From IMG/VR virus record IMGVR_UViG_3300042460_002238, positions 1-39,490 of that record: 39,490 nt of DNA, one strand, 5' to 3'. The number at the start of each line of letters is the position of its first letter. Positions within the stretch are counted from its first letter, which is position 1. Positions 26,992 through 39,490 of this stretch are shown here, one piece after another. Source of the DNA: a virus. The position numbers and the translations under genes are program-made. Below the pieces are notes generated by a model, which saw only the letters and a program-made list of their open reading frames with translations, had not been told where the DNA came from and did no database searches.

Positions 26992-27495
26992 TCAAGCGGC
27001 TTTCGCGGCCTCGTCCTGCCGTTCGTCGGCGAAGGTGAACGGGCCGTAGATGCGCGCGGAGATCTTCGCATGCGCCCCCTTGAGGGATTCGCGCACCGTG
27101 GATTCATCGACGCCGATCCGGCTGGCGACGACCCGGGCGCTACGCGGCCGTTCCCGATGGGGCACCACGTAGGTTTCCCAGATCGCCCGGCGCATGGCCT
27201 GGGGCAGGTGCTGCACGGCCTCGTTCGTCTCGCGGCAGCGGATGTTGTGCGCCAGCTCGCGGCCACGCTGCTCGACCATGGCCGACATGCCGCCGTCCGG
27301 AGGGCAGGACACTACCTCGCCGTCGACCTCGATCAACTCGAAGACGATCCCATCGCCGCGGATGCCGGCGTTCTCCTGCATCTCGGCGATGCGGCCGAAG
27401 GGAGACGATGACCGACTCAGGACAGCCGCCGGCTCCTGGCACCACTGGCCCCACTTCATCAGCCGGTATTGCACAGTGTTTCGCTCGATCTTCAT
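26992..27495 (-). CDS. Q-like antiterminator / late-gene regulator
   Basis: Protein of 167 aa. WGQWCQEP near the N-terminus resembles the WGRW-type start of lambdoid Q antiterminators (phage 21/82 group), and the C-terminal ASRIGVDESTVRESLKGAHAKISARIYG is a helix-turn-helix region like the DNA-binding end of Q or RinA proteins. It is the last gene of the leftward early transcript and lies immediately before a leader rich in terminators and the lysis genes, the position of Q in lambdoid phages. Function follows from position plus partial similarity. Confidence 0.7.
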   Translation of the reverse strand: MKIERNTVQYRLMKWGQWCQEPAAVLSRSSSPFGRIAEMQENAGIRGDGIVFELIEVDGEVVSCPPDGGMSAMVEQRGRELAHNIRCRETNEAVQHLPQAMRRAIWETYVVPHRERPRSARVVASRIGVDESTVRESLKGAHAKISARIYGPFTFADERQDEAAKAA

Positions 27496-27650
27496 GCCGT
27501 TCCCCTCTTCCTCAATCGAATCTCTTTCACCGCCGCCAGCCTTCGTGTCTCACAGCTCTGGCAGATCGCACTGCCCCGCTGCCGGCGCACGAGTTGGTCT
27601 ACTGGCTTGTTCCGGTTGCATCGGCCGCACCAGAAGGTGGCATGGGTCAT
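27492..27650 (-). CDS. 52-aa zinc-ribbon protein
   Basis: ATG at 27650 overlaps the stop of the gene upstream (ATGA) and its own stop overlaps the Q-like start. Two knuckles, CGRC at about 9-12 and CQSC at about 33-36, and a basic C-terminus. It resembles the small Zn proteins scattered in nin regions of lambdoid phages; its activity is unknown. The longer frame upstream of this ATG is a shadow of the neighbouring gene. Confidence 0.68.
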   Translation of the reverse strand: MTHATFWCGRCNRNKPVDQLVRRQRGSAICQSCETRRLAAVKEIRLRKRGTA

Positions 27651-27967
27651 ACCTTCCCCTGCAGCGCCACGACTGCCTTGCAGATGGCGATGGCGGGGGT
27701 TGGGCCGTAGCTGCCCTCTTCTTGGAAGCAGCGACAGGCATACCAACCGGCGCCGTCCGGCCCAACCTGCAGTTTGTGCTTCTCCAGAAGCCTCATCGCC
27801 TCGGCGGGGTTGCGGGTGGGCTGGTAGGGGCCGCCATCGGGCGGGCGAATGGTGTATGTGACGCACATCGGCTTTTCGCCATGCTGGTTGTAGCTGATGA
27901 ATGCGTCCGATATGCCAATAGCATGAGCTACGGCCATATCCAATTCAGCTAGTTCCTGTTCGGTCAC
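27647..27967 (-). CDS. phage ABA-sandwich-type (NinX/DUF2591-like) protein
   Basis: Protein of 106 aa with GTG start (GTGA overlap with the VRR-NUC stop). LDMAVAHAIGISDAFISYN, TYTIRPPDGGPYQPTRNPAEAMRLLEKHKLQV and TPAIAICKAVVALQG match the short alpha-beta-alpha phage family (Phage ABA sandwich, DUF2591-like) found in nin regions. No enzymatic motif is visible. Confidence 0.65.
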   Translation of the reverse strand: MTEQELAELDMAVAHAIGISDAFISYNQHGEKPMCVTYTIRPPDGGPYQPTRNPAEAMRLLEKHKLQVGPDGAGWYACRCFQEEGSYGPTPAIAICKAVVALQGKV

Positions 27968-28266
27968 AGTACCCCTCCCCTCATCGTCGCCAGCACCCGC
28001 AGCGCCCCGTCAACGTCGCTTACCACCGCCAGCGGCCCGCCGCGCCAGGCGCCGTGCCAGTCCAGCTGGTCCGGCGTCAGGGCCCGGGCGCTGGGCGGTT
28101 TCTGGCCGTCCTTCACCTCAACCAGGGCGGTCTGACGCTGATAGCCCACCAGCAGATCCGGGCAGCCGTCGCCGACCATGTGCAGCGGCTGAACGGTCGC
28201 ACCGGCGGCTCGAAGGGCGGCCACGATCTCAGGCTGGTTCCGGTCCACTTTGGCGGCATGGCGCAT
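27964..28266 (-). CDS. VRR-NUC domain nuclease
   Basis: Protein of 100 aa from the ATG at 28266 (TGATG overlap with the gene upstream). The VRR-NUC core is clear: Glu13 (QPEIVAALR), GCPDLLVG (Asp at about 36), and LVEVKDG with the Glu and Lys of the PD-(D/E)XK site, then LTPDQLDWHGAWRGGPLAVVSDVDGAL. Such minimal phage VRR-NUC proteins can act on branched DNA and probably replace a RusA/Rap-type resolvase in the nin region. The longer frame upstream of this start is non-coding. Confidence 0.88.
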   Translation of the reverse strand: MRHAAKVDRNQPEIVAALRAAGATVQPLHMVGDGCPDLLVGYQRQTALVEVKDGQKPPSARALTPDQLDWHGAWRGGPLAVVSDVDGALRVLATMRGGVL

Positions 28267-28754
28267 CAGGCGGCCTCCAGCAGCGCGCCTGTCGCTCCCA
28301 GGGCAGATGCTGCCGGGGGCATGTCCTCGAGCAGGAGCTGAAAGGCGATAAGTCCCTTCTTCGTTTCCCCAGCGCGGCGGAAACCTGCACGCAGGTAGCA
28401 CCGGCCTGGATCGCGCTTGTGGCGTACCTGCGCGGGGTTCACGAAGGTGACCATGCCCAGCGGTGGAACATCCGGCCACTTGGCACGCGTGGCGCTCACG
28501 GCTGCGCGTATCAACTCGGATGACAGGCCGGCCCCCTCGTTGCGGAACAGGGTGTTCATCCAGGCGCCGCGCCAGGCGTGCTGGGCATACTCCGGCCATG
28601 ACGTTACCCACAGGGCACGCTCGCAGCCGGTCAGCAGCACCAGGCAGCGGCCGGGGGGCACAAACTGCGGTGACTCCGCCTTCTGGCGGTTGTAGTGCCG
28701 ATTCGCCAGCGGGAGAGCGGCGCGGTCAAAGCGATGGGAGAGGCGCCAAGGCAT
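28266..28754 (-). CDS. conserved phage protein of unknown function
   Basis: Protein of 162 aa from the ATG at 28754, which overlaps the stop of the DUF1364 gene (TGATG). Recognisable stretches: ANRHYNRQKAESPQFVPPGR, CERALWVTSWPEYAQHAWRGAWMNTLFRNE, LSSELIRAAVSATRAKW and YLRAGFRRAGETKKGLIAFQL. The pattern recurs in many phages of different hosts and its end resembles GNAT-type acyltransferase folds, but I see no acetyl-CoA loop. Function is unknown. A longer upstream frame is a shadow. Confidence 0.72.
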   Translation of the reverse strand: MPWRLSHRFDRAALPLANRHYNRQKAESPQFVPPGRCLVLLTGCERALWVTSWPEYAQHAWRGAWMNTLFRNEGAGLSSELIRAAVSATRAKWPDVPPLGMVTFVNPAQVRHKRDPGRCYLRAGFRRAGETKKGLIAFQLLLEDMPPAASALGATGALLEAA

Positions 28755-29068
28755 CACGCAGCCACCTTCACCAACTCCAGTTCCCAAAGCCGCCGCTGCC
28801 AGCGCCAGTACGCCAGGTTCCAGGCATCGGCCTTCATGCCCTTGTTCATGGTGAAGCCTTGGTCGAGCTCTCGATGACAGGCGGCACACCCGGGCACCGC
28901 GAACTGATCCCCGGCCTTCTCGCTCATCCCCTTGCCGTGCACCAACTGATTGGAGTGGCAGGGGACAGTGTCTTCGCCGCCCCCAGTGCAGCAGGGCAGC
29001 ATCAGCATGCAGGGCTGGCCCTGGCAGAGATCCAGCAGCTTGCGGGAGCGGTAGTTGCCTTTGCTCAC
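28754..29068 (-). CDS. DUF1364 HNH-like nuclease-domain protein
   Basis: Protein of 104 aa with GTG start overlapping the NinB stop (GTGA). Pattern of DUF1364: CQGQPCMLMLPCCTG, VPCHSNQLVHGKGMSEKAGDQFAVPGCAACHRELDQG, with paired Cys and His residues that would hold a zinc in an HNH-like fold (H-S-N and C-x-x-C-H). It lies next to NinB in the nin segment. A nuclease role in recombination is likely for the family but not proven. Confidence 0.82.
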   Translation of the reverse strand: MSKGNYRSRKLLDLCQGQPCMLMLPCCTGGGEDTVPCHSNQLVHGKGMSEKAGDQFAVPGCAACHRELDQGFTMNKGMKADAWNLAYWRWQRRLWELELVKVAA

Positions 29069-29553
29069 GCCGCTTCTCTCAACTGATCCGCATACTGCGG
29101 GTCAGACCACACGATGCGATGCTCGGAGCCGAAGGCGAACAACCAGGTGATGAAGGCCGTCGCCAGCTTCTTCGGGAATCGCCGGGTCTGATCACCCAGT
29201 GCCACGAAGCCATCCCGGCCCATCGCCGGCACCAGCCGCATGTCTCCCATCTGCGCCCAGGCGTCCTGCAGCTCCGGGTAGTTGATGTGGTCGCCCTTCG
29301 TCTCGTGCTTGAAGGCATCCACCAGCAGGCGCTTCATGTCCTCCTGGTGCCACTTCCGGCCGAAGTACTCGTACTGCTCGGCGATGTCCCCGATCATGGC
29401 GTGGTAGCGCTCTTCCTGATCGCGGGTCTTGCTGGCCTTGCGGATGACAACCTCGAAGTCACCCTGCGGGACAGCCTTCTGGGCGTGGCGGTAGGCGCGC
29501 TCCATGACGAAGCGGAGGGACTGCGGGGTCAGCTTTTCGATGAACGCCTTCAT
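29065..29553 (-). CDS. ninB: NinB-like recombination protein
   Basis: Protein of 162 aa from ATG at 29553. Matches the NinB family: N-terminal LTPQSLRFVMERAYRHAQKAVPQGDFEVVIRKASKTRDQEERYHAMIGDIAEQYEYFGRKW, then MKRLLVDAFKHET and LGDQTRRFPKKLATAFITWLFAFGSEHRIVW. NinB is a ssDNA-binding partner in the phage recombination system. The start overlaps the stop of the short Cys-rich gene upstream. Confidence 0.9.
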   Translation of the reverse strand: MKAFIEKLTPQSLRFVMERAYRHAQKAVPQGDFEVVIRKASKTRDQEERYHAMIGDIAEQYEYFGRKWHQEDMKRLLVDAFKHETKGDHINYPELQDAWAQMGDMRLVPAMGRDGFVALGDQTRRFPKKLATAFITWLFAFGSEHRIVWSDPQYADQLREAA

Positions 29554-29750
29554 GCCTCTGCTCCCATGGTCTTGATGTACTGCTCGCGGCTCGGCCGGCG
29601 GTGCTCGCGGCGTACCTGGCCGGTGTGAACGAAGTAGCCGAAGTCCTTGCATGCGATCTGGGCGCCTGCGCAGCGCTGCAGGAAACCGCAGGCATCGCAC
29701 GGGCGCGGGCCACGGGGGGAGAGCATCTGGCGGCGAACAGAGGCGGTCAT
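29550..29750 (-). CDS. 66-aa cysteine-rich protein
   Basis: ATG at 29750 overlaps the TGA of the gene upstream; stop overlaps the NinB start. A cluster PCDACGFLQRC, then C at about 34, could bind a metal or iron-sulphur centre; a basic C-terminus with VRREHRRPSREQYI follows. I do not recognise the family. Overlapping starts and stops on both sides support it as a gene. Confidence 0.6.
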   Translation of the reverse strand: MTASVRRQMLSPRGPRPCDACGFLQRCAGAQIACKDFGYFVHTGQVRREHRRPSREQYIKTMGAEA

Positions 29751-30097
29751 GCGGCTTTCTTCTGCTCTTCGAAAATCAGGGATGCCCACAGCGGGCACGG
29801 GCTCAGGTGGCGCTGTTCCGCGATGGCGTAGCCGTGCTTGACGATCACCCCGTTGCGGGCAGCCTTGCGGAAGATCGATCCGAAGGCTTTAGGCGTCGTC
29901 GGTGCCGTGACCTTGGACTGGGCCCGGAACTGCTCCGACGTGAAGCATTCGTGCCCCCTCGCGAACTCGACCAGGGCCTCGTAGGCGGCATCGCCCCAGC
30001 CGGGTGACACGGATTCGGCATGATCGATGGCGGCTTGGATGCCGCGGTCGCGTTCAACTAGCGCGAGCTGCATGCCTTCTTCGCGGGCGGGGTTCAT
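29747..30097 (-). CDS. hypothetical protein, winged-helix-like, next to the helicase loader
   Basis: Protein of 116 aa, starting at an ATGA overlap with the DnaC-like gene. The middle (ALVEFARGHECFTSEQFRAQSK, PKAFGSIFRKAARNGVIVKHGYAIAEQRH) has the layout of a winged-helix domain with a hairpin wing, a form common in phage proteins near replication genes. It may bind DNA. No specific family recognised. Confidence 0.65.
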   Translation of the reverse strand: MNPAREEGMQLALVERDRGIQAAIDHAESVSPGWGDAAYEALVEFARGHECFTSEQFRAQSKVTAPTTPKAFGSIFRKAARNGVIVKHGYAIAEQRHLSPCPLWASLIFEEQKKAA

Positions 30098-30876
30098 GCG
30101 GCCCTCCGATGCGACTGGCCGGTGAAGATCGCCGCCCGGCCGCCGTTCTCGCGCAGTCGGTCAACCACGCGCTCGTCCAGAACCTTCGGCAATTCCTCGG
30201 CGCTAACATTGCCGCACACGATCGTCGGCAGCATCTTCTCGTAGCGCTCGTTGAGGACATCGAAAAGGATCACGCGCTCGTTGTCGGTGCCGTTGGTGGC
30301 GCCGATCTCATCCAGCACCAGCAGCGGCAGGCTGCCGAAGTACTCGACCATCTGCGTCTCGGTGCGGTCACCCTGCCCCTTCCAGGTGGCGCGGATCTCG
30401 CGCAAGAGTTCCGCCACCGTGCAGTACCGGGCCGCCTTCCCGCTGCGGACAACGTGCTTCAGCAGACCTACGGCAAGGTGGGTCTTGCCGGTACCGACAT
30501 CACCGATCATCACCAAGCTTTCGCCGGTGTTGCACTGCTCCGGCCAGCGCGCGGCGTAGCCCTGCACCATCTCGAAGGCCTCGACGTTGGCATCAGTGGC
30601 CCGGTAGGTTTCCAGTTCGCACGACGCGAAGCGGAGCGGAATCTTGGCGTTCTTCAACCCCAGATCGACCTTCGCTTGCTCTTCCTGGGCCTTCGCCGCG
30701 GCGTCTCGGGACTCGACGCACTTCGGGCAGACCCCGGGCCGGGTGCCAATGGCCTCGCCACCGCTCAGGTACTCTGTCACGGCATAGTCACCGTGGTCAG
30801 CACACACCCGCGATCCGGGCCGCTGCGGGTACTCGCCGCGTGCCGCCTTCAGCGGACTGAAATCAGAACTTCCCAT
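30094..30876 (-). CDS. DnaC-like helicase loader ATPase
   Basis: Protein of 260 aa from the ATG at 30876 (a GTG two codons earlier is possible); a G-rich run precedes it. Walker A GDVGTGKT at 125-132, Walker B LLVLDE with Asp189-Glu190, and an N-terminal pair CPKC (50-53) with earlier Cys/His that may bind zinc. The C-terminal VDRLRENGGRAAIFTGQSHR carries the arginine-finger region. In the place of lambda P, just after the replication initiator, it would load the host DnaB helicase at the phage origin. It overlaps the initiator gene by 14 bases. Confidence 0.9.
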   Translation of the reverse strand: MGSSDFSPLKAARGEYPQRPGSRVCADHGDYAVTEYLSGGEAIGTRPGVCPKCVESRDAAAKAQEEQAKVDLGLKNAKIPLRFASCELETYRATDANVEAFEMVQGYAARWPEQCNTGESLVMIGDVGTGKTHLAVGLLKHVVRSGKAARYCTVAELLREIRATWKGQGDRTETQMVEYFGSLPLLVLDEIGATNGTDNERVILFDVLNERYEKMLPTIVCGNVSAEELPKVLDERVVDRLRENGGRAAIFTGQSHRRAA

Positions 30877-31657
30877 TTGCACCCACCCCCGCGCGATAGT
30901 CCTTCGGGCCGGCGGGCACCATGCCGCCGGTCTTTGCGCCGTTTACGCCATCCTTCGGCGCATACACGTCCTGCCAGTTGTTCCGCGTGGATTTCTCCAA
31001 AATCGCCTTCACGTCGTGGCCGGCATCCCTGAACTTCTCCAACTCCATGACCACCAGTTCGCGGGCACGATCGGTCATGGGCTTTTTTATCTTCAGCCGC
31101 ATTTCCTCGAAATGCCCCCAAGTGGTCGCATCGATCCAACTGGGCAGCACCCAAGGCGCGGCAGCGCCCTTCTTATCTTTCTTCTGGTTACTGGTTACTG
31201 GCTTATGGCTAGGGTTATTTCCAGAAACCACATTGGTTTCGCATTTGGAACCGTCTTGGTTTTCAATGGAAACCGTTTGGGTTTCTGGAAATAACCCGGA
31301 CGGTTCTGGTCCGCGTGGAACATTCCGGCTGAAGTTGGGCGGGCGACCCCCGAGCTTTCCGACCTGGCGGTTCTTCTCGGCTTTGGCGGCATAAGCGCTG
31401 ACTTCCTCGTCACAGCGCTTCTGGCCATATCCTTCCGGGCCTAAGACGAAGTATTCGCCCAGGACAAAGGCGACTGCGGCCCGCTCGTCCTTGGAGTTGG
31501 CGCGCGCCAACTTGCAGCAGACCGACACATCGGCCGGCAGCGGCTTCTCGCGGCTGTAGTACTGGTCAATGAGGCGGCTGTAGATGCCCTCTTCCAGTGC
31601 CGACAAGTGGGCCGTGTCGCGAATCCAGTCTCCGATATGGCGCTTGTAGTGATTCAC
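30863..31657 (-). CDS. replication initiator-like protein, DUF1376 N-terminus
   Basis: Protein of 264 aa from GTG at 31657 (NHYKRHIGDWIRDTAHLSALEEGIYSRLIDQYY), the usual DUF1376 beginning; a GTG at 31675 is an alternative, and both lack a strong ribosome site. The N-terminal domain (1-100) has GYGQKRCDEEVSAYAAKAEKNR, a helix carrying basic residues. A low-complexity linker (about 105-160, SerAsnGlnLys-rich) coincides with a repeat-rich, AT-rich DNA island. The C-terminal domain (ATTWGHFEEMRLKIKKPMTDRARELV, NNWQDVYAPK) resembles phage DnaT/O-type ends. By position next to a DnaC-like gene it takes the role of lambda O. Confidence 0.83.
   Translation of the reverse strand: MNHYKRHIGDWIRDTAHLSALEEGIYSRLIDQYYSREKPLPADVSVCCKLARANSKDERAAVAFVLGEYFVLGPEGYGQKRCDEEVSAYAAKAEKNRQVGKLGGRPPNFSRNVPRGPEPSGLFPETQTVSIENQDGSKCETNVVSGNNPSHKPVTSNQKKDKKGAAAPWVLPSWIDATTWGHFEEMRLKIKKPMTDRARELVVMELEKFRDAGHDVKAILEKSTRNNWQDVYAPKDGVNGAKTGGMVPAGPKDYRAGVGANGKF
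31184..31298. other. candidate replication origin (repeats in an AT-rich island within the initiator gene)
   Basis: Within a GC-rich genome this stretch is A/T-rich and repetitive. It has CTGGTTA at 31184 and 31191 plus CTGGCTTA at 31198; a perfect 18-bp inverted repeat at 31212-31229 and 31280-31297 (GGGTTATTTCCAGAAACC on the left); and three direct units starting TTGG at 31233, 31256 and 31277, each framed GGTTT ... AACC and spaced 23 and 21 bases. Lambda carries its origin iterons in the same place, inside the O gene. Confidence 0.62.
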
Positions 31658-31662
31658 AGCGA

Positions 31663-31872
31663 CTAGATGCCCCACACCGAGCGAATCGACACGCGCTCCT
31701 GCAGCGCCTGGACTTCGAGCCCATCGAGCTTAAGGGCGGCATCCACGCGCAGGCGACGGACACGGTGCGTGTCGATGCCCGCTGCCTCCAACTCGAACTC
31801 GAGGTCGCCGAGCATCTCGCAACGGGCGCGCAGCAGATCCATTCGGATGGTTCGCCAGAGCTTCTTGAGCAT
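31663..31872 (-). CDS. small hypothetical protein before the replication gene
   Basis: Protein of 69 aa with an AGGAGG ribosome site at ideal distance from the ATG. Helical, basic N-terminus (MLKKLWRTIRMDLLRARCEML), then acidic LEFELEAAGIDTHRVRRLRVDAALKLDGLEVQALQERV. The family is not recognised. It sits between the CII-like regulator and the replication initiator. Confidence 0.65.
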   Translation of the reverse strand: MLKKLWRTIRMDLLRARCEMLGDLEFELEAAGIDTHRVRRLRVDAALKLDGLEVQALQERVSIRSVWGI

Positions 31873-31880
31873 GTGTCCTC

Positions 31881-32288
31881 CTAGGCCGCGCGCGTCTCGC
31901 GCAGGAAGTTCTTGATCGTCTGCAGCTCGGCTTCGGCGCGCTCGCGGGCTTCCCGCTCCTGGCGCAGATCGCGCTGCAGTTCGGTTTCTCGCTGGCGCAG
32001 GGACGCCGGGTCATAGCCGCGGCTGTACAGCAGCCACAGCAGCGGCAGCTCGTTGCCGCAGGCGTCCATCAGCCGGTCGAGGAACTCGCCCTTGATGCCA
32101 GCCTCACCCTGCTTGATCCGCGCCCAGGTGGGAGCGTCGATCCCGGTGTCGATCGCCACAGTCTTGTCGATAGAGCCGACCAGTTCCGCGCACTTGGCGA
32201 TGGCTTGGGGCAGACTGCGGATGGTCGGCAGCACCGCCAGATCGATGGCGATGCGCGGGCGACGGACCCGGAGATCCAGTTCAGACAT
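31881..32288 (-). CDS. phage regulator, HTH with coiled-coil tail (CII-like position)
   Basis: Protein of 135 aa from ATG at 32288, preceded by GGAG. Residues about 20-75 hold a helix-turn-helix-like region (IDKTVAIDTGIDAPTWARIKQGEAGIKGEFLDRLMDACGNE), and the last 45 residues form a charged coiled coil (RQRETELQRDLRQEREARERAEAEL) suited to dimerisation. It is in the place of lambda cII, downstream of the Cro-like gene and before the replication genes, so a lysis-lysogeny activator role is possible. No direct similarity to CII is claimed. Confidence 0.68.
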   Translation of the reverse strand: MSELDLRVRRPRIAIDLAVLPTIRSLPQAIAKCAELVGSIDKTVAIDTGIDAPTWARIKQGEAGIKGEFLDRLMDACGNELPLLWLLYSRGYDPASLRQRETELQRDLRQEREARERAEAELQTIKNFLRETRAA

Positions 32289-32522
32289 GAAAGGCTCCAC
32301 AAGGGAATTGCGTGGCGTTGTAAGTCGCGTTCCGGCCAAAATTTTTGGGCCATGAACGATGAAGCGAAGAAAACGGAGCCTGATTGCCCAAGCTCAAGGT
32401 GCGAGGCCGGCGGGTGCCGGCTGCGGAGGAGATGTGCCCGGGTGCCTCTGTCCGCGCCGGGCGCGCGGTTGGGGTTGCTGCCGGGGAGAACGGCAGCGCG
32501 TGCAGAGGCTCACGCTGGGGGA

Positions 32523-33155
32523 TCATGCGGCGCTCCGCTGATGCCAGCCGCGGCCGCTCGCCTTTTCCTGGGAGCGGCGGAGCGAGTGATAGGAAGCGCA
32601 TTCCACGACTTCGACGTTGCCGACTTGGAACGGCAGCGAAAGGTTCTTTCTGGCAAGGAAGTAGTGCCCCGCCCCCTTGCCGCGCTGGTCCCATTTACCC
32701 GACGACTGCCAGACCTCCCACCATTCAGCGAAGGTCAGTTCCCAAGCCACACGGCAATGCTTGGCCTGATTGCGCTGGGAGCGATAGGCCGTTGCGGCAT
32801 CGGTGCCGCAAGGCGACTGAATCTTGCGGGCCGCGTCGTACTCCTCGCGGTTCATGCCGGTTCGGGCAAAGCACCGGCGGTTCAGCCCAGCGGAGTACTC
32901 GGCGGCCTTGGCCCTTTGATGGGCTTGGACCACCTTGCCCCGGCCGTTTTCGTAGGAGATGCCCTTCAACTTGAGGATTTGGCGGACCCGCTCGCGGGTA
33001 ATGCCATGCACATCGCCGATTTCCTGCAGGGTCTTGCCGCCGCGATAGGCGGCGGCCATCGCATCAGCGCGCACGTCAGCAGAAAGCTTCTGCGCCTGCA
33101 TCTGGATAGCGAGGGCTTCCAATGAGCCGCCGCAATGCGGGCAGGACTTGTGCAT
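32523..33155 (-). CDS. HTH protein with phage DNA-binding-like C-terminal domain
   Basis: Protein of 210 aa from ATG at 33155 (TGATG overlap with the Cro-like stop). Begins with CPHC, followed by a clear helix-turn-helix of the sigma-region-4/MarR-type layout (YRGGKTLQEIGDVHGITRERVRQILKLKG, about 38-66). The C-terminal half has WELTFAEWWEVWQSSGKWDQRGKGAGHYFLARKN, a pattern seen in phage proteins related to AP2/HNH-type endonucleases without an obvious catalytic motif. Probably DNA binding, perhaps a regulator or homing-type relic. It is followed by about 230 bases with no convincing gene. Confidence 0.7.
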   Translation of the reverse strand: MHKSCPHCGGSLEALAIQMQAQKLSADVRADAMAAAYRGGKTLQEIGDVHGITRERVRQILKLKGISYENGRGKVVQAHQRAKAAEYSAGLNRRCFARTGMNREEYDAARKIQSPCGTDAATAYRSQRNQAKHCRVAWELTFAEWWEVWQSSGKWDQRGKGAGHYFLARKNLSLPFQVGNVEVVECASYHSLRRSQEKASGRGWHQRSAA

Positions 33156-33412
33156 CACGCCGCCGCCTTGGCCTGGGGGGCGTTGGCGGCTACGGGAGCG
33201 GTGCCGAACATATCCGGCCGCATCTCGTACTTACTGACCTTGCCGCCAGTCGCCTCGTGAATCAGGACCGCAGCTTCGGGTGTCAGGGTGACCATCTTCA
33301 GCCACTTCCAGACGTGACCCTGGCGAACCTTCCCGCCGCAGCGGCGGGCGAGTTCGGATTGGGAGTTGCCGCACAGGCGGATAGCCTTTTGGACGTGCCG
33401 GTTCTGCTTCAT
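33155..33412 (-). CDS. Cro-like repressor, YdaS/Cro family
   Basis: Protein of 85 aa from ATG at 33412. KAIRLCGNSQSELARRCGGKVRQGHVWKWLK (about 7-37) is a YdaS/Cro-type helix-turn-helix, followed by TPEAAVLIHEATGGKVSKYEMRPDMF, the usual YdaS C-terminal part. It diverges from the CI-like gene and is the first gene of the leftward early transcript. The predicted PR -10 hexamer ends just 7 bases before the ATG, so its transcript could have almost no leader. In this position it should compete with the repressor for the three operators and favour lytic growth. Confidence 0.87.
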   Translation of the reverse strand: MKQNRHVQKAIRLCGNSQSELARRCGGKVRQGHVWKWLKMVTLTPEAAVLIHEATGGKVSKYEMRPDMFGTAPVAANAPQAKAAA

Positions 33413-33419
33413 GCCGCCC

Positions 33420-33448
33420 AGACTACTACTGTGGTAGTGGTCAGTCAA
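33420..33448 (-). promoter_or_regulatory. PR promoter of the leftward early operon
   Basis: On the minus strand: -35 TTGACT (33448-33443), 17-base spacer, -10 TAGTCT (33425-33420). The operator at 33422-33438 fills the spacer and overlaps the -10, its centre 13 bases past the last base of the -35, the same as at PL and PRM. Confidence 0.78.
33422..33438. promoter_or_regulatory. operator OR-a
   Basis: ACTACTACTGTGGTAGT, centre 33430; one base different from the perfect palindrome at 35904-35920. It lies in the PR spacer. Confidence 0.82.
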
Positions 33449-33464
33449 CTACCACGGTTGTTTG
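33448..33464. promoter_or_regulatory. operator OR-b, degenerate middle site
   Basis: ACTACCACGGTTGTTTG, centre 33456, 26 bases from OR-a and 24 from OR-c. The left half is a near match and the right half is poor (12 of 17 match the palindrome at 35930). It lies about 41 bases upstream of the predicted PRM start, the place of the activating OR2 in lambda. Confidence 0.6.
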
Positions 33465-33490
33465 AATGACTACAACCACAGTTGTAGTTT
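33462..33490 (+). promoter_or_regulatory. PRM promoter of the repressor gene
   Basis: -35 TTGAAT (33462-33467), 17-base spacer, -10 TAGTTT (33485-33490). The -10 ends 7 bases before the repressor ATG at 33498, which predicts a transcript starting at or next to the start codon. Confidence 0.7.
33472..33488. promoter_or_regulatory. operator OR-c
   Basis: ACAACCACAGTTGTAGT, centre 33480, inside a longer palindrome ACTACAACCACAGTTGTAGT (33469-33488) with 8-bp arms. It overlaps the PRM spacer and -10, so binding there should turn off repressor synthesis, as at lambda OR3. Confidence 0.78.
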
Positions 33491-33497
33491 TCGATAA

Positions 33498-34169
33498 ATG
33501 GAAACGCTAGGACAACGACTTAAGACGCTCCGGGGGCCTGATTCGCAGGCCGCTGCTGCCAAGCGTAGCGGCATCTCCCAACAGCAGTGGTCGAAGCTTG
33601 AGCGCGATCTGATCGACGCCGACGACAGCTCTGTCCTTGGCCGCATCGCCGATGCCTACGGCGTTACCACCGACGAGCTGCGCGGATCTCGACCTCTGAA
33701 GCCCAGAACCCCCGAGACCGTCCGTGTTGGGCAAGGCGATCACGACTCTCCTCTGGTGTATGTCACGAAGGTGACCGGCGCCCACCTTTCCGCCGGGAGC
33801 GGAGAAGTCCTCTGGGACATGGACGAACTACAGAACTCTCACGCCTTCCAGGCCGATTACATGCGGGAAAAGGGCTTGCGGCCCGAGCGGTGCAAAATTT
33901 GGACGGTCCGCGGCGACAGCATGGAACCGCGGTACCGCAGCGGGGGCGTGGTGCTGATCGACATGTCCGACCGCGCACCGGTACATAGCAAGGTCTTCGC
34001 CCTGGTTGGAGAAGATGGCCTGCGCATCAAGCAACTCCGCCGCGGGATCGCAGGTTGGGAGATGCACAGCTACAACCCGGATCAGAATAAGTATCCGCCC
34101 GAGCCAATCGTAGGTGAAAACTACGCGATCATAGGGCGCGTGCGGTGGTATGCAGGGGACGAGGACTAG
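33498..34169 (+). CDS. CI-type repressor, HTH plus S24 (LexA-like) self-cleaving domain
   Basis: Protein of 223 aa. Residues about 4-60 form an HTH_3/Xre domain (LGQRLKTLRG, AAAKRSGISQQQWSKLERDL, LGRIADAYGVTTDEL). The C-terminal half is a peptidase S24 domain: cleavage site Ala99-Gly100 in HLSAGSG, nucleophile Ser141 in RGDSMEP, and general base Lys178 in LRIKQL. RecA-stimulated cleavage would inactivate it on DNA damage and induce the prophage. No Shine-Dalgarno precedes the ATG; the PRM -10 lies 7 bases upstream, which predicts a leaderless mRNA, as for lambda cI from PRM. It is followed by two envelope genes on the same strand. Confidence 0.93.
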   Translation: METLGQRLKTLRGPDSQAAAAKRSGISQQQWSKLERDLIDADDSSVLGRIADAYGVTTDELRGSRPLKPRTPETVRVGQGDHDSPLVYVTKVTGAHLSAGSGEVLWDMDELQNSHAFQADYMREKGLRPERCKIWTVRGDSMEPRYRSGGVVLIDMSDRAPVHSKVFALVGEDGLRIKQLRRGIAGWEMHSYNPDQNKYPPEPIVGENYAIIGRVRWYAGDED

Positions 34170-34177
34170 GAACGACC

Positions 34178-34597
34178 ATGCGTCATTTTTCGATCATCTT
34201 GGCTATTGCCGCGGTTTCAGTAAGCGGGTGTGCAACCTCTCCTGTCTCCTCCAGCAGCGCTCCCGATGTACCGCCGCAACGAATCATCAATTCCAGCCTG
34301 ACAACGCCATTTCAAGGCGCCGCACTACTCGTGGTCACCCGAGATAGAGGACTCATGGGCTCTGCCTGCAATTCTAGAGTGTTCATCGACGGCCAGCCTA
34401 TCGCCGACCTGGCGCCAGGCGAACGTGTCGTGGCATATGTTCTGGAAGGTGAGCACGTAGTAGGAGCGACCGCGACGGGCATTTGCGGTGGCGGTACAGC
34501 CGAGACCGGAGCGGCAGTGAAGGCAGGCCAGTCTAAGGCATACCGCATCAGCTCTGGTCAGGGCGGCGACTACGCTATCAGCGCGACAGCGTTCTAG
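34178..34597 (+). CDS. lipoprotein, probable lysogenic-conversion gene
   Basis: Protein of 139 aa from ATG at 34178 (AGGA upstream). Residues 1-18 are a lipoprotein signal with lipobox VSGC (Cys18); Ala follows, not Asp, so outer membrane sorting is expected. The mature part is Ser/Pro-rich (20-45), then a beta-rich domain with VFIDGQPIADLAPGERVVAYVLEGEHVVGA, a PEGA/DUF2846-like layout, and G-rich end. It starts 8 bases after the repressor stop and should be co-transcribed with it in the lysogen, the place held by rexAB in lambda. A role in surface change or exclusion of other phages is an inference. Confidence 0.8.
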   Translation: MRHFSIILAIAAVSVSGCATSPVSSSSAPDVPPQRIINSSLTTPFQGAALLVVTRDRGLMGSACNSRVFIDGQPIADLAPGERVVAYVLEGEHVVGATATGICGGGTAETGAAVKAGQSKAYRISSGQGGDYAISATAF

Positions 34598-34606
34598 GAG
34601 ACACAT

Positions 34607-34831
34607 ATGGCTGGGATGCTGCAGATTATCACATGGATTCTCTGTTTCTATCTTGTATTGAAGGGTGTCGAAATTCTTCAGATTTCTCTCGCAAGTAGTA
34701 GAGAAAATAGAGCCAGCATGATCATTTGGGCAGTTGTTGTATTAGCTATCTGCATTGTTGCCGCTGGGGGATTTATCGCTATGCAAGACCAGCAGGCGTC
34801 TAGCCTGTCGCAGAACTTCAGGAATCAGTAA
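34607..34831 (+). CDS. small two-span membrane protein
   Basis: Protein of 74 aa with two membrane helices (about 5-25 and 38-58) separated by a short polar loop (SSRENRAS). Codon use is clearly more A/T-rich than in nearby genes, a sign of recent acquisition. GGAGAC lies upstream of the ATG. It is co-directional with cI and the lipoprotein and is followed by a strong bidirectional terminator. No family recognised. Confidence 0.7.
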   Translation: MAGMLQIITWILCFYLVLKGVEILQISLASSRENRASMIIWAVVVLAICIVAAGGFIAMQDQQASSLSQNFRNQ

Positions 34832-34858
34832 AGGCTGGGGTTCAAGCCTGTGCCGCAA

Positions 34859-34890
34859 AAAAGAAACCCGCCTTTCGGCGGGTTTCTTTT
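34859..34890. terminator. bidirectional rho-independent terminator
   Basis: 14-bp perfect stem AAAAGAAACCCGCC / GGCGGGTTTCTTTT around TTTC, with T-runs at both ends. It ends the rightward cI-lipoprotein-membrane transcript and the leftward one of the secreted-protein and barrel genes. Confidence 0.9.
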
Positions 34891-35131
34891 AGCGCTGACC
34901 GTAGGGGTTATAAAGCGGATTGCTCTTGTTGTATGCCGGCGGATTGCTGAACTCATCGCGCTGACTTCCACCATTGGATTATGAGCCATAGTTGTTGTAG
35001 CGGTACTGGTCGGGCTCGCTCTTCATGTGGCCCTGGACGTAGGTGCCATCCTTCCGATAGTAGCCCTGCTGGTAATCAGCCAGAGCTGTAGCGCTCGATA
35101 GCATCAAAACAGAAGCAATCAACAGTTTCAT
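34889..35131 (-). pseudogene. secreted small protein interrupted by an in-frame stop (34979..35131 still open, 50 aa)
   Basis: From the ATG at 35131 a 19-residue signal peptide (MKLLIASVLMLSSATALA) is followed by DYQQGYYRKDGTYVQGHMKSEPDQYRYNNYGS and then TAA at 34981-34979. The same frame continues for 29 codons: SNGGSQRDEFSNPPAYNKSNP, then LYNPYGQR, to a second TAA at 34891-34889, just before the terminator. Composition (Asn, Tyr, Gly, Ser, Gln) is the same on both sides and the length of the restored protein (80 aa) suits this family of small secreted proteins, which repeat G-x-Y-x-RKDGTYV and NNY. TAA could come from CAA (Gln) by one change. Alternatively the 50-aa form is the functional product. 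Confidence 0.72.
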
Positions 35132-35171
35132 ACCCCTCTCCCCATGTGTGCGACTACGGTCGCGGTTGCAT

Positions 35172-35801
35172 CTAGAAGACGAAGCGGGCACCGCCCCTGA
35201 TATCGCTGTAGGTCTCTTCAATCTTCAGGTTGTCGGTCTCCACTTCGGTGCGGCGATATTCGAGGAAGAGCCCAACTGGCTCCAGCTGGTACGCTGCGCC
35301 CGCGCGCGCCTCCCAGCCGTCCGTCTCATCAGTCTTGAGGTAGCCCGCCTCAACATAGCCATAGAACTTGCCTGACCCCGCCGCGACACCAAGGTGGATG
35401 CCGTAGCCGTCCTCATCATCGGCAGCCGTCAATCCGCCTGCGGAGATCTCGCCGTCAAAGCTGAGATACTCGACGCGGCCCCATGCAGCTATCCCAGGCT
35501 GATCAACGAAGCGATATCCGAGGCCTGCCCGCCACTGATCCACCTCCGCCTCAACGTCAACTCCGCCGACAGTGCCATCTGGCTCTGAGTGCTGGTACTC
35601 AGCGGTGAAGAAAGGGCGAGACTTGCCGGCGACGATGCGGACTCCGTAACCAGGCCCAGTCAAATCATCGCCTACCCCATCCACAGTGAACTTCAGGTGG
35701 GAATACAGCAGGTCAATTGTGTTGTGCGCGAACTGATCGGCTTCGGCCAAAGCGACCGGTGATGCGAGTGCAAGGCACAGCGGAAGAGCAAATTGTTTCA
35801 T
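35172..35801 (-). CDS. outer membrane beta-barrel protein (OmpX/Ail-like size)
   Basis: Protein of 209 aa with a signal peptide cut after ALA at about residue 19, then alternating amphipathic strands (TIDLLYSHLKFTVDGV, GYGVRIVAGKSRPFFTAEYQHS, VDQWRAGLGYRFV, AWGRVEYLSFDGEIS, GYGIHLGVAAGSGKFYGYVEAGYLK, AGAAYQLEPVGLFLEYRRTE) and an aromatic C-terminus GGARFVF, the BAM recognition signal. Eight to ten strands fit the length. Phage-encoded Lom/Ail-type barrels alter the host surface and appear in lambdoid prophages. AGGGGAA precedes the ATG. It is leftward, before the secreted-protein gene. Confidence 0.85.
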   Translation of the reverse strand: MKQFALPLCLALASPVALAEADQFAHNTIDLLYSHLKFTVDGVGDDLTGPGYGVRIVAGKSRPFFTAEYQHSEPDGTVGGVDVEAEVDQWRAGLGYRFVDQPGIAAWGRVEYLSFDGEISAGGLTAADDEDGYGIHLGVAAGSGKFYGYVEAGYLKTDETDGWEARAGAAYQLEPVGLFLEYRRTEVETDNLKIEETYSDIRGGARFVF

Positions 35802-35851
35802 GTATTTCCCCTACGTTGCCGGCATGTTGCCCTAACTCTAAAAACTAGAAA

Positions 35852-35871
35852 ACCTGATTGGCGCGTCAGGT
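35852..35871. promoter_or_regulatory. inverted repeat upstream of the outer membrane protein gene
   Basis: ACCTGA-N8-TCAGGT, a 6-bp perfect inverted repeat 50 bases upstream of the barrel gene start. The ACCTGA...GCGTCAGGT elements resemble those of the repeat at 1996-2017, with a spacer two bases longer. It is a possible operator; no protein can be named. Confidence 0.35.
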
Positions 35872-35903
35872 CGAGCCACTACCGTTCGTCGGCTCAGGGT
35901 TTG

Positions 35904-35920
35904 ACTACTACTGTAGTAGT
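35904..35920. promoter_or_regulatory. operator OL-a, perfect palindrome
   Basis: ACTACTACTGTAGTAGT: arms ACTACTAC and GTAGTAGT around a central T, centre 35912. It lies 8 bases upstream of the PL -35, the same offset as OR-b from the PR -35. Confidence 0.88.
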
Positions 35921-35948
35921 TGACATGCCACTACTACGGTAGTAGTTT
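35920..35948 (+). promoter_or_regulatory. PL promoter of the rightward early operon
   Basis: -35 TTGACA (35920-35925, consensus), 17-base spacer, -10 TAGTTT (35943-35948). The first gene starts at 35993. The operator at 35930-35946 fills the spacer. Confidence 0.85.
35930..35946. promoter_or_regulatory. operator OL-b, perfect palindrome
   Basis: ACTACTACGGTAGTAGT: arms identical to OL-a around a central G, centre 35938, 26 bases from OL-a. It fills the spacer of PL and overlaps its -10. Confidence 0.88.
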
Positions 35949-35992
35949 ACTACCCATCACCACCGGGCCACGGCCCACCACAGGGGATCGGG

Positions 35993-36151
35993 ATGAACGA
36001 ACAGCAGAAGGCGCGGATCGAGACTTGGGCCCGCGAGTGCATCAACTCTCTGACCATGGCCAGCATCCGCAAGGACGGCGCCGCGCTCGCCCACTTGGAT
36101 GCCGCCAGCCGCGCCAGCGTTGAAGCCTTCCGCATCGCGCAGGGGGCCTGA
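35993..36151 (+). CDS. first gene of the PL operon, small hypothetical protein
   Basis: Protein of 52 aa, MNEQQKARIETWARECINSL in its N-terminal half. GGGGATCGGG precedes the ATG. Helical and charged, no motif recognised. As the first gene after PL it holds the position of small early proteins of lambdoid phages. Its stop and the next ATG are 3 bases apart. Confidence 0.68.
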   Translation: MNEQQKARIETWARECINSLTMASIRKDGAALAHLDAASRASVEAFRIAQGA

Positions 36152-36154
36152 GCT

Positions 36155-36313
36155 ATGTCCCAGGCCATCACCCCCGGCGCCCTCGTCCGCATCTCCTACG
36201 GCCCCCGTCGCGGCTACCGCGGCGAGGTCATCAAGATCGAAGGCCGACACATCACCGTCAGCACGGTGGGCGGCAACGTCACCCTCCTGGCTTCGCAGTT
36301 GGAGCTGGTGTGA
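36155..36313 (+). CDS. 52-aa SH3-like (KOW-type) small protein
   Basis: Short beta-rich protein: ITPGALVRISYGPRRGYRGEVIKIEGRHITVS and VTLLASQLELV. The G-x-x-V-x-x-x-x-G-x-x-x-G-x-x-G-x-V-x-x-I pattern is that of a KOW/SH3-like barrel, usual in RNA- or protein-binding modules. Its TGA overlaps the next ATG (TGATG). Function unknown. Confidence 0.66.
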   Translation: MSQAITPGALVRISYGPRRGYRGEVIKIEGRHITVSTVGGNVTLLASQLELV

Positions 36314-36741
36314 TGCCCGGCGCCGATCAATTCAACTACGAAGCGGCACTGGAACTGGTCCGCGATGACGTGTCCTTCGTGGACGCCATCACCGACATCG
36401 TTGACACCCTCTCCTACGCGACGATGACCGACGCGCAGATCGAGAAGGCGGCCGGCACCTACCAGGTCGAAATCCGCACCCAGCGCCTGCGGCAGAAGCG
36501 CGCCATCGCACAGCAGGCCTGCCAGGCGCTGCGCTCCATCCTCAGCGACTTCGGCGGCACCAACCTGAGCCCTCGGGAGGCTGCCATCGCCTCTGCCCTG
36601 CACTTCGAGACCCGTGCCTGGGTGGAATCCCGCGCCGAGGTCCTGTCGCGCCGCGACACACCCGAAGCTTGGGCGGAGCACCGCGCCGAACTGGCGGCGG
36701 ACATGAAGCGCGACGACGAGCTGATGCGGAGGGCCGCCTGA
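36313..36741 (+). CDS. hypothetical early protein, helical
   Basis: Protein of 142 aa from ATG at 36313 (TGATG overlap). Mostly helical: DQFNYEAALELVRDDVSFVDAITDIVDTLSYATMTDAQIEKAAGTYQVEIRTQRLRQKRAIAQQACQALRSIL in outline. No named family recognised. Its own stop overlaps the next start (TGATG). Confidence 0.65.
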   Translation: MPGADQFNYEAALELVRDDVSFVDAITDIVDTLSYATMTDAQIEKAAGTYQVEIRTQRLRQKRAIAQQACQALRSILSDFGGTNLSPREAAIASALHFETRAWVESRAEVLSRRDTPEAWAEHRAELAADMKRDDELMRRAA

Positions 36742-36995
36742 TGAGCGCCCGCGGCTACGTACTCGCCGTTCTGCTGGTGATCGCCATGATCTGCCTGCGC
36801 AACTGCGGCTTCGCCGTGCGCGTCACCTTCGTCACGGCACCAAGTGATCAGGCGAGCGCCCCGCTGACGCCCGCCTCCTCCACCTGCAGCCCGGAACCGC
36901 GAGACAAGGGGTCTCGTATGGACCGCAAGCAGATGACTCGCCTGATCACCGCGCGGCCGGGGATGACCTCGGCCGCGCCTCTCCGGATCGCCTGA
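36741..36995 (+). CDS. small membrane protein, early operon
   Basis: Protein of 84 aa. One N-terminal membrane helix (GYVLAVLLVIAMICL, about 4-19), then a Ser/Thr/Pro-rich stretch and a basic C-terminus with MDRKQMTRLITARPG. It begins at the overlap with the previous gene's stop. No family recognised. The C-terminal third could instead be read as a separate start at the internal ATG (MDRKQM). Confidence 0.58.
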   Translation: MSARGYVLAVLLVIAMICLRNCGFAVRVTFVTAPSDQASAPLTPASSTCSPEPRDKGSRMDRKQMTRLITARPGMTSAAPLRIA

Positions 36996-36996
36996 C

Positions 36997-37296
36997 ATGG
37001 CCACTCATATCGTGGAAATCCCTGACGGACACGCCCTCGTAACCCTGCTGGTGCCGAAAGGCATTTCGCAGATGCAGGTCAACCAGGTCATGACCAAGGC
37101 TGCAGCGACGCTTGCCGAGTTGAATGGCATGAACTGCCAGCGCATCGCCGACCCGCAGTACCTGGGCTATCGCGTGTTCCCCATGGAATCGAAGCCCAAC
37201 CCAGCCCCGCCCAAAGTCGTCTCCCTGGACGAGCGCCGCAAAGCATTGGGCCACAGCTTCCGCCTTAACCCCTTCACCCCGCCCAGCGCCGCCTGA
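36997..37296 (+). CDS. hypothetical early protein
   Basis: Protein of 99 aa, start one base after the previous stop. N-terminal half (THIVEIPDGHALVTLLVPKGISQMQVNQVMTKAAATLAEL) suggests a small alpha/beta domain; the rest is Pro-rich and basic (PPKVVSLDERRKALGHSFRLNPF). No family recognised. Confidence 0.62.
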   Translation: MATHIVEIPDGHALVTLLVPKGISQMQVNQVMTKAAATLAELNGMNCQRIADPQYLGYRVFPMESKPNPAPPKVVSLDERRKALGHSFRLNPFTPPSAA

Positions 37297-37318
37297 TCGC
37301 GGCCTCACAGGAGTACCC

Positions 37319-38032
37319 ATGTCCATCAGCACCACGCAGCGTGTCTCCGCGCTGGAACGCACCGTCCGCAAGGACGCCCTGGCCAAGCTGACCGAGGAGG
37401 TCAACACCAGCTTCGCCCCCGCTCTGGCCGCAGCCGCCAACGACGAGAGCCACACCAAGCAGCTGCGCGCCGTCGCCGCCGACATCATCCGCAAGGGCCG
37501 CGCTGGTGCCGAGAAGGCCGCCCTCGAAGCGTTCCTGAACAGCCACCAGCCGGCCGTGTGGATCCTCGACTGCCTGCGCCCCAAGATGTTCCGCATCAGT
37601 GCCGACGGCAAGCGCATGGCCGAGGACGCGCCTGGCGAGCACGTCGCGGTATTGATCCCCAACTACTGCACCGGCCAGGACCTGCTGATCGATGCGCGCG
37701 CGCCTGCGAAGTGCGAAAGCTTCGCGGACGCCGAGAAGAAGGTCACGGCGCAGGAACTGCTCGGCGGCAAGCTCGAACTGCTGGACGACCTGCAGTGGTC
37801 GCTGATCATCGACCGCCGATTCCGCGAGCCGTCGGTCAATCCGGTGTTCTTCCCCAAGAGCCCGACGGAACGCTGGTACTACACCAAGACCCCTCTGACC
37901 GCCGAGAAGGGCAAGTCGCCTTCGGGCTTCGTCTGGGCCGTGCTCCTCACCAACGGCAGCGTCCTCTTCTTCTACCCGAGCGACTACGGGTACGTCCGTG
38001 GTGGCCGGCTCGTGCCCGCCAGTCAGTACTAG
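37319..38032 (+). CDS. hypothetical early protein, 237 aa
   Basis: Acidic-to-neutral protein with a coiled N-terminal half (SALERTVRKDALAKLTEEVNTSF, AAANDESHTKQLRAVAADIIRKG) and a beta-rich second half containing AVWILDCLRPKMFRIS and WYYTKTPLTAEKGKSPSGFVWAVLLTNGSVLFFYPSDYGYV. ACAGGAGTA precedes the ATG. I do not recognise the family. It sits before the Sak4-like and SSB genes; a structural or DNA-protecting role in early infection cannot be excluded. Confidence 0.66.
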   Translation: MSISTTQRVSALERTVRKDALAKLTEEVNTSFAPALAAAANDESHTKQLRAVAADIIRKGRAGAEKAALEAFLNSHQPAVWILDCLRPKMFRISADGKRMAEDAPGEHVAVLIPNYCTGQDLLIDARAPAKCESFADAEKKVTAQELLGGKLELLDDLQWSLIIDRRFREPSVNPVFFPKSPTERWYYTKTPLTAEKGKSPSGFVWAVLLTNGSVLFFYPSDYGYVRGGRLVPASQY

Positions 38033-38072
38033 GCCTTTGGCACTCCCTCTCTAATACCAACCGGAGCTTTCC

Positions 38073-39155
38073 ATGGGCAACTTCCAGCCCGCAACAAACA
38101 CCCAAGCCCGCCTCAAGGCAGGGATCATGGGCTTCGCCGGCGACGGCAAGACCTACACCGCGGCATCGCTGGCCATCGGCCTTGTGCAGCTGATGCGCAA
38201 GCGCGAGATCGCTGACGGCGACAAGCCCGTCATGTTCCTCGACACCGAGACCGGCTCCGACTGGATCAAGTCGCGCTTCGATGAAGCCGGCATCGATCTG
38301 ATGACCGCCAAGACTCGCGCCTTCACCGCCCTGCTGGAGTGCATCAAGGAGGCTGAGGAAACCGGTTGCGTCCTGATCATCGACAGCATCACCCACTTCT
38401 GGCGCGACCTGACGGAGTCCTATGCCAAGAAAAAGGGCCGCAACCGCCTGCAGTTCGAAGATTGGAGCGTTCTCAAGACCGAGTGGGGCAAGTTCACCGA
38501 TGCGTTCGTGAATGCCAACTGCCACGCGATCCTGTGCGGCCGCGCCGGCTACGAGTACGACTTTTTCGAGAACGACAACGGCAAGAAGGAGTTGGAAAAG
38601 ACCGGCATCAAGATGAAGGCCGAGGGCGAGACCGGCTACGAGCCCTCCATCCTGATTCTGATGCAGAAGCACCGCGACATCGAAACCAAGAAGGTCTGGC
38701 GGGAGGCGCACATCATCAAGGACCGCAGCACCCGCCTGGACGGCAAGACGTTCGTCAACCCGACGTTCGACCACTTCATGCCGCACATCGACTTCCTGAA
38801 TCTGGCCGGAAAGCAGTTCGGTGTCGACACGATGCGCGACAGCCAGGAGCTTTTCCAGAACGACGGCCGCCCTCGCTGGAAGTGGGAGGCCGAACAAAAG
38901 GAAATCGCCCTGGATGAGATTGTGGAGCTTCTTGGGAAGCACCACGGCGGGACCAGCAATGACGCCAAGAAGGCTCGTGCCGACCTGGTGGAGAAGCATG
39001 CTGGCTCGCGCTCTTGGGAGCGGGTAAAGACCATGAAGTACGCCGAGGTCGCGAAGCTGCGCAATGACCTCTGGCTGCAGCTGGAAGGAGTCCCGTACAA
39101 GTTCGATCCGCCGGTACCCGGCGCCGCCAACTCTGAGCATCAGGAGGCTGCGTAA
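38073..39155 (+). CDS. Sak4-like recombinase, AAA_24/RecA-type ATPase
   Basis: Protein of 360 aa. Walker A GFAGDGKT at 20-27, Walker B CVLIIDSI with Asp104, and a RecA-like core of about 250 residues, matching the phage AAA_24 group to which Sak4 single-strand annealing proteins belong. [31 protein letters not shown] near the end is a helical C-terminal domain. Sak4 proteins pair with phage SSB, and ssb follows directly with a TAATG overlap. It replaces lambda Bet in the PL operon. GGAG precedes the ATG. Confidence 0.83.
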
Positions 39156-39490
39156 TGGCACGCGGCGTCAACAAAGTCATCCTCATCGGCAACCTGGGCA
39201 AGGACCCGGAAACGCGCTACTTCCCCAGCGGCGACGCCGTCACCAACGCCACGCTTGCCACCACCGAGAGCTGGAAGGACAAGCAGAGCGGCGAAACCAA
39301 GGAAGCCACCGAGTGGCACAACCTGGTGTTCCCCGGGAAGTTGGCCGAGGTCGCCGGCAAGTATCTGAAGAAGGGCTCCAAGGTCTACGTCGAAGGCTCC
39401 CTGCGCACCCGCAAGTGGCAGGACAAGGAAGGCAAGGACCGCTACACCACCGAGATCCGCGTGCAGGACATGCAGATGCTCGACGGCAAG
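39155..39490 (+). CDS. ssb: single-stranded DNA-binding protein, 3' end outside the window
   Basis: Partial; 112 codons of the OB-fold domain are present. [75 protein letters not shown] are standard SSB motifs. It overlaps the stop of the Sak4-like gene (TAATG). The acidic C-terminal tip that binds partner proteins lies past the window edge. Confidence 0.95.

Follow-up and report, generated by a model that had tools for sequence, protein, structure and literature searches.

The window, by which we mean the whole 39,490-base stretch of viral DNA analyzed here (IMG/VR record IMGVR_UViG_3300042460_002238), carries terminase and lysozyme genes together with a divergent pair of regulatory genes, cI and cro, that enclose three related operators. 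The gene cro (33155..33412, minus strand) encodes an 85-aa YdaS-family HTH protein matching PF15943 (7e-14; 51.8 bits, above the cut-off of 30) and phrog_35 (2.2e-16), and the solved structure closest to it, 3bd1, is itself a Cro protein. Its neighbor cI (33498..34169, plus strand) encodes a 223-aa repressor that combines an HTH domain (HTH_31, 1e-9) with an S24 peptidase domain (PF00717, 9.4e-13) and matches phrog_4 (8e-35). CI carries A99-G100, S141 and K178, as expected of a self-cleaving protein, and these residues are also conserved in a sister phage, L030; judged by family and residues, CI fits the class of self-cleaving S24 repressors. The operon behind cro (30094..33158, minus strand), assigned to the predicted promoter PR, encodes a sigma70 r4-like HTH protein, a small HTH protein, a DUF1376 primosomal/O-like protein and a DnaC-like loader. 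A further early operon, assigned to the predicted promoter PL and likewise furnished with operators, begins 1.8 kb beyond cI, and in it small genes precede the recombination genes (38073..39490, plus strand), namely an AAA_24/Sak4-like ATPase (38073-39155) and an SSB (39155 to the contig end). Neither an N-like antiterminator nor a nut site was identified, no nut-like word longer than 11 nt is shared between the PL and PR transcripts, and the PL leader folds no better than expected by chance (z -0.05).

The operators are five copies of a 17-bp unit, for which we count mismatches against the 17-mer ACTACTACnGTAGTAGT. Between cI and cro lie O1 (OR1-like; 33422..33438, ACTACTACTGTGGTAGT, one mismatch) over PR, O2 (OR2-like; 33448..33464, ACTACCACGGTTGTTTG, five mismatches) 5' of both PR and the predicted cI promoter PRM, and O3 (OR3-like; 33472..33488, ACAACCACAGTTGTAGT, three mismatches) over PRM. 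In front of the recombination operon lie an OL2-like operator (35904..35920, ACTACTACTGTAGTAGT) and an OL1-like operator over PL (35930..35946, ACTACTACGGTAGTAGT), both perfect with 0 mismatches. Coordinates and mismatch counts agree with the original prediction, made from the letters of the window, of perfect copies at 35904 and 35930 and altered ones at 33422, 33448 and 33472; the recomputed centers (33430, 33456 and 33480 at OR; 35912 and 35938 at OL) likewise reproduce its center-to-center spacings of 26 and 24 bases at OR and 26 at OL. In shuffled sequence, about 0.01 matches to the 17-mer are expected at no more than three mismatches. When a position weight matrix (PWM) built from four sites was used to scan the 39.5 kb window for the omitted fifth, the five operators were the top five positions and none outside them reached any site, bearing out the expectation that a motif search of the window would find no other copies. 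In this leave-one-out scan O1 scores 26.1 and O2 13.5, both without competitor, and O3 scores 22.6; even the weakest site, at 33448, compares with 10.8 for the best non-site. O2 is the weakest of the five copies and a poor palindrome (4/8 symmetric pairs), yet its core, ACCACGGTTGT, is intact. An ACnACnGTnGT core is common to all five operators and occurs elsewhere in the window only twice, at 8757 and 26435, both times within predicted genes.

Symmetry at O3 needs separate comment. A better axis at 33478.5 yields a perfect 20-mer, ACTACAAC-CACA-GTTGTAGT (33469-33488), read directly from the sequence, and such a wider perfect palindrome is found at O3 only; since the operator word has a 3-bp period, the register of O3 is ambiguous. 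Near PL, the PWM gives only two sites, and a third OL operator, as in lambda, was not found. A possible third half-site, ACTACCGTTCG, starting at 35878, was rejected because it falls inside a short stretch, CTACCnTTCGTCGGCTC, that is conserved in L030, whose operators differ.

Judged by sequence only, the operators overlap the -35/-10 regions of the three predicted promoters: PR (33420..33448, minus strand; TTGACT-17-TAGTCT), the weak PRM (33462..33490, plus strand; TTGAAT-17-TAGTTT) and PL (35920..35948, plus strand; TTGACA-17-TAGTTT). At all three, as had been claimed, an operator center lies at +13 from the last base of the -35 hexamer, the PRM value being register-dependent because of the better O3 axis at 33478.5. 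A second center lies at -13, that is, 8 bases before the -35, at both PR and PL, again as proposed, and at -11 (6 before) at PRM. Robust to the choice of register is the finding that TAGT, the last four bases of the operator, forms the first four bases of the -10 at PR, PRM and PL. The -10 hexamers are weak, each with 3/6 consensus matches (T-12, A-11 and T-7), and a standard consensus promoter scan detected no promoter at the predicted PR, PRM or PL. In the window phage an ATG stands 7 nt past the -10 of each divergent promoter, that of cro after PR and that of cI after PRM; in L030 the distances are 7 nt (cro) and 8 nt (cI). With start codons 7-8 bases past the -10, the mRNAs should begin at or within 1-2 bases of the AUG, and the cI and cro mRNAs are therefore predicted to be probably leaderless in both phages. 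Leaderless mRNAs are known for lambda cI, whose start codon sits at the PRM start, and for PaaR2 (PMC8630535), and in PY54 the cI and cro mRNAs were both mapped as leaderless by RACE (PMC4488713).

L030 (IMGVR_UViG_3300027491_000246) is the only sister phage found. Its DNA identity to the window is 86% over 32434-33196, 80% over 33754-34170, 86% over 34878-35086 and 79% from 35954. Homology is lost over 33197-33753, an interval that comprises the DNA-binding part of cro, OR and the N-terminal domain of cI. Two further stretches without homology are the accessory interval that follows cI and, at 35087-35953, the block in which the PL operators lie. Within the genes, cro diverges upstream of about residue 72 and cI up to residue 86. 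The CI C-terminal regions of the two phages are 83% identical; alignment is poor in the N-terminal domains of CI and in the DNA-binding regions of Cro, and these match different HTH families. At PL the break falls at 35953/35954, only 1-2 bases away from the transcription start predicted at 35955: identity is 64/65 from 35954 on, in the 5' part of the PL transcript (35954..36018, plus strand), versus 24/79 before it.

At the equivalent places L030 has five operators of the TCACAtGGTGTG type in the same 3+2 plan, three at OR (TTACACACCATGTTAAA, GTCAACATGGCGTGAGG and GTTCACATGGCGTGTAC) and two at OL (TTTCACACTGTGTTGAC and ACTCACATGGTGTGTAA). They are spaced 23 bases apart throughout and keep a constant offset of +14/-9 at PR, PRM and PL, the PR equivalent reading TTGACT-17-TGTAAT. 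In leave-one-out scans with the L030 PWM, the L030 operators again take the first five ranks, and the window and L030 PWMs each rank their own five sites first without picking the sites of the other phage. The operators are thus swapped together with both DNA-binding domains, which provides independent evidence for the sites as CI/Cro targets. As read from the two contigs, the predicted CI/Cro switch is complete, with all its specificity parts exchanged together and the rest of the core switch kept, and window and L030 constitute a natural swap experiment on the parts that define immunity specificity. Our tentative reading, at slightly less than even odds, is that immunity specificity in this lineage may be swapped wholesale and in coordination: one place of exchange would take in OR together with the DNA-binding part of cro and the N-terminal domain of cI, and another, some 1.8 kb past cI, the PL operators. 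The CI domain for cleavage and oligomerisation would stay fixed, as would the transcribed portion of the PL operon, with the breaks falling at the boundary between the CI domains and at the start of PL, and both genes would be leaderless.

Other readings of the sites were weighed against the same features. An unlikely though appreciable one takes the operators as real and has CI and Cro share them unequally, Cro acting mainly at O3 as in PY54, so that the switch would be unlike lambda's. It draws on O3 alone having the wider perfect palindrome and a distinctive spacing and axis, and on the single OR3 site bound by PY54 Cro (PMC4488713); however, the ACnACnGTnGT core is the same at all five sites, and the Cro DNA-binding part has been exchanged along with all five, OL included. 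That the palindromes serve another regulator, of host or phage origin, is very improbable. Several further HTH proteins are encoded nearby, but the sigma70 r4-like HTH neighbor is 89% identical in L030 while the operators there are wholly different, making this protein an unlikely reader of the sites, and it is the cro and cI DNA-binding domains that changed together with them. Least probable of all, and close to negligible, is a chance or low-complexity array of ACT-triplet repeats without function. The unit is indeed a 3-bp periodic word, and an exact 17-mer scan of IMG/VR returned 26 unrelated viral contigs, every one with a single isolated copy, which was taken as chance. Yet none of the 26 has a pair 18-34 bases apart, whereas the window, with 0.01 matches expected, has five clustered at two places, each in constant register to a promoter.

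Returning to the CI/Cro switch, we observe the site positions, their uniqueness, the promoter register, the gene identities and the joint replacement with the DNA-binding domains in L030; the five sites very probably act as operators in a lysis-lysogeny switch of the lambda type. The scheme that follows takes binding, relative affinities, PRM activation, looping and induction from lambda. CI dimers on O1 and O2 would shut PR and with it cro and the replication genes, and CI at O2, centered at about -41, would aid RNA polymerase at PRM and thereby boost CI production; the O2 center, 6 bases before the PRM -35 (7 in lambda), is compatible with such activation. The OL pair would shut PL and the recombination genes, and OL-OR looping through the CI C-terminal domain, which is conserved, may be possible over the OR-OL distance of about 2.5 kb. 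Cro would bind these sites too, and its occupation of O3 would turn PRM off and commit the phage to lysis. Upon DNA damage, RecA-stimulated self-cleavage of CI at A99-G100, with S141/K178, would open the switch.

Comparison with lambda supports the proposed description of this locus as the lambda layout built from an unrelated operator sequence: CI-type and Cro genes adjoin the sites, and the offsets are near those annotated for lambda (NC_001416), which are +13/-11 at PR, +13/-11 at PL and +11/-12 at PRM. The two phages share divergent cI and cro, three 17-bp OR operators, OL operators 5' of the left early operon, a PR and a PL operator center at +13 from the -35, and an operator whose last four bases start the -10; all window offsets are within two bases of lambda's. 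The window phage differs in having two OL sites against three in lambda, spacings of 26/24 (OR) and 26 (OL) instead of 24/23 (OR) and 24/20 (OL), and a PRM offset of 13 instead of 11. Unlike in lambda, moreover, the operator sequence is an unrelated one, Cro is a YdaS-family protein, and cro is probably leaderless.

Each element of the switch has a counterpart elsewhere. The immB switches of N15 and phiKO2 have three OR and two OL sites (PMC4488713), but belong to another lineage, the telomere phages, and have OL 5' of repA. In CP-933P, a YdaS-family Cro and the CI analogue PaaR2 share OR/OL operators, as shown experimentally; these shared operators lie over PR, PRM and PL, and the mRNA of the CI analogue is leaderless, whereas PaaR2 is described as without CI sequence similarity, the half-site consensus is GTTTAGTAA, and there are four inverted repeats and three OL sites (PMC8630535). 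PY54 resembles the window phage in its leaderless cI and cro and differs in that its Cro binds one operator (OR3) only (PMC4488713). Pseudomonas phage D3 (AF165214) has an S24 CI with 30% identity and three annotated operators at 24 bp start to start, which are, however, 14-bp ATGGGAATACTCAT-type operators. No simple common offset was extracted from the promoter/operator regions of P22, HK639, D3 and L035, a weak repressor match of the present CI. Given the N15/phiKO2, CP-933P and D3 precedents, this architecture and its use with unrelated operators are not unusual, and the switch type is already known, its elements being present in lambda, N15/phiKO2, CP-933P, PY54 and D3. Nothing known is overturned by this switch. 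Collectively, these results confirm that the observation behind the original prediction is real and was correctly interpreted, and the sister phage adds to its usefulness. They also suggest a constraint in which operator position relative to the -10/-35 is constant within a phage and near lambda's, and the operator sequence itself is unconstrained. The two operator/protein sets could be used as orthogonal repressor parts.

Among isolated phages, the best CI identity is about 30%, and megablast of 27000-39490 against 50,697 phage records gave no match. Scans with the repressor, Cro, the sigma70 r4-like neighbor and the PL leader returned no immunity-region relative other than L030; the weak repressor matches (L035-L039) are 27-34% identical. 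From the scan of genome contigs came a single weak match, to an Oscillospiraceae MAG; it covered the HTH only and was left aside. The switch adds a fully legible CI/Cro system with a new operator specificity, from a lineage that lacks isolated relatives in this region.

The OR3-like operator copy over PRM, O3, doubles as a 20-mer inverted repeat (33469–33488) whose arms match perfectly around a 4-bp centre, a symmetry absent from the other four operator sites. Because the operator word is 3-bp periodic, several half-site spacings are possible, and the choice among them might set the preference of CI apart from that of Cro.

The predicted PL transcript opens with 65 nt, containing CACCGGGCCACGGCCCACCACAGGGGAT, that are near-invariant between the two phages compared, i.e., the window (35954–36018) and its sister phage contig L030 (7587–7651), whereas the surroundings are ~79% alike. 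The segment shows no unusual folding, and a search for a copy of it in the PR transcript found none; it might act as an antitermination or translation signal. The PL operon encodes related proteins ending in an FVRxxRRVPASQ-like C-terminal motif (window 37319–38032; L030 7950–8555 and 9014–9901), with at least two paralogues in L030.

Between the predicted repressor gene cI and PL, the accessory genes (34190–35801), partially replaced in L030, encode a lipoprotein-like protein, a small membrane protein and, on the minus strand, an outer-membrane beta-barrel protein, and resemble genes for lysogenic conversion or exclusion. Within this interval, a small and probably secreted protein with the C-terminal end DYQQGYYRKDGTYVQGHMKSEPDQYRYNNYGS, encoded on the minus strand in both phages (window 34979–35134; L030 6933–7175), is strongly conserved despite differing neighbours.

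The gene after cro (32523–33158, minus strand) encodes a sigma70-region-4-like HTH protein with a CxxC motif, 89% identical to its L030 counterpart and a candidate for the CII role.
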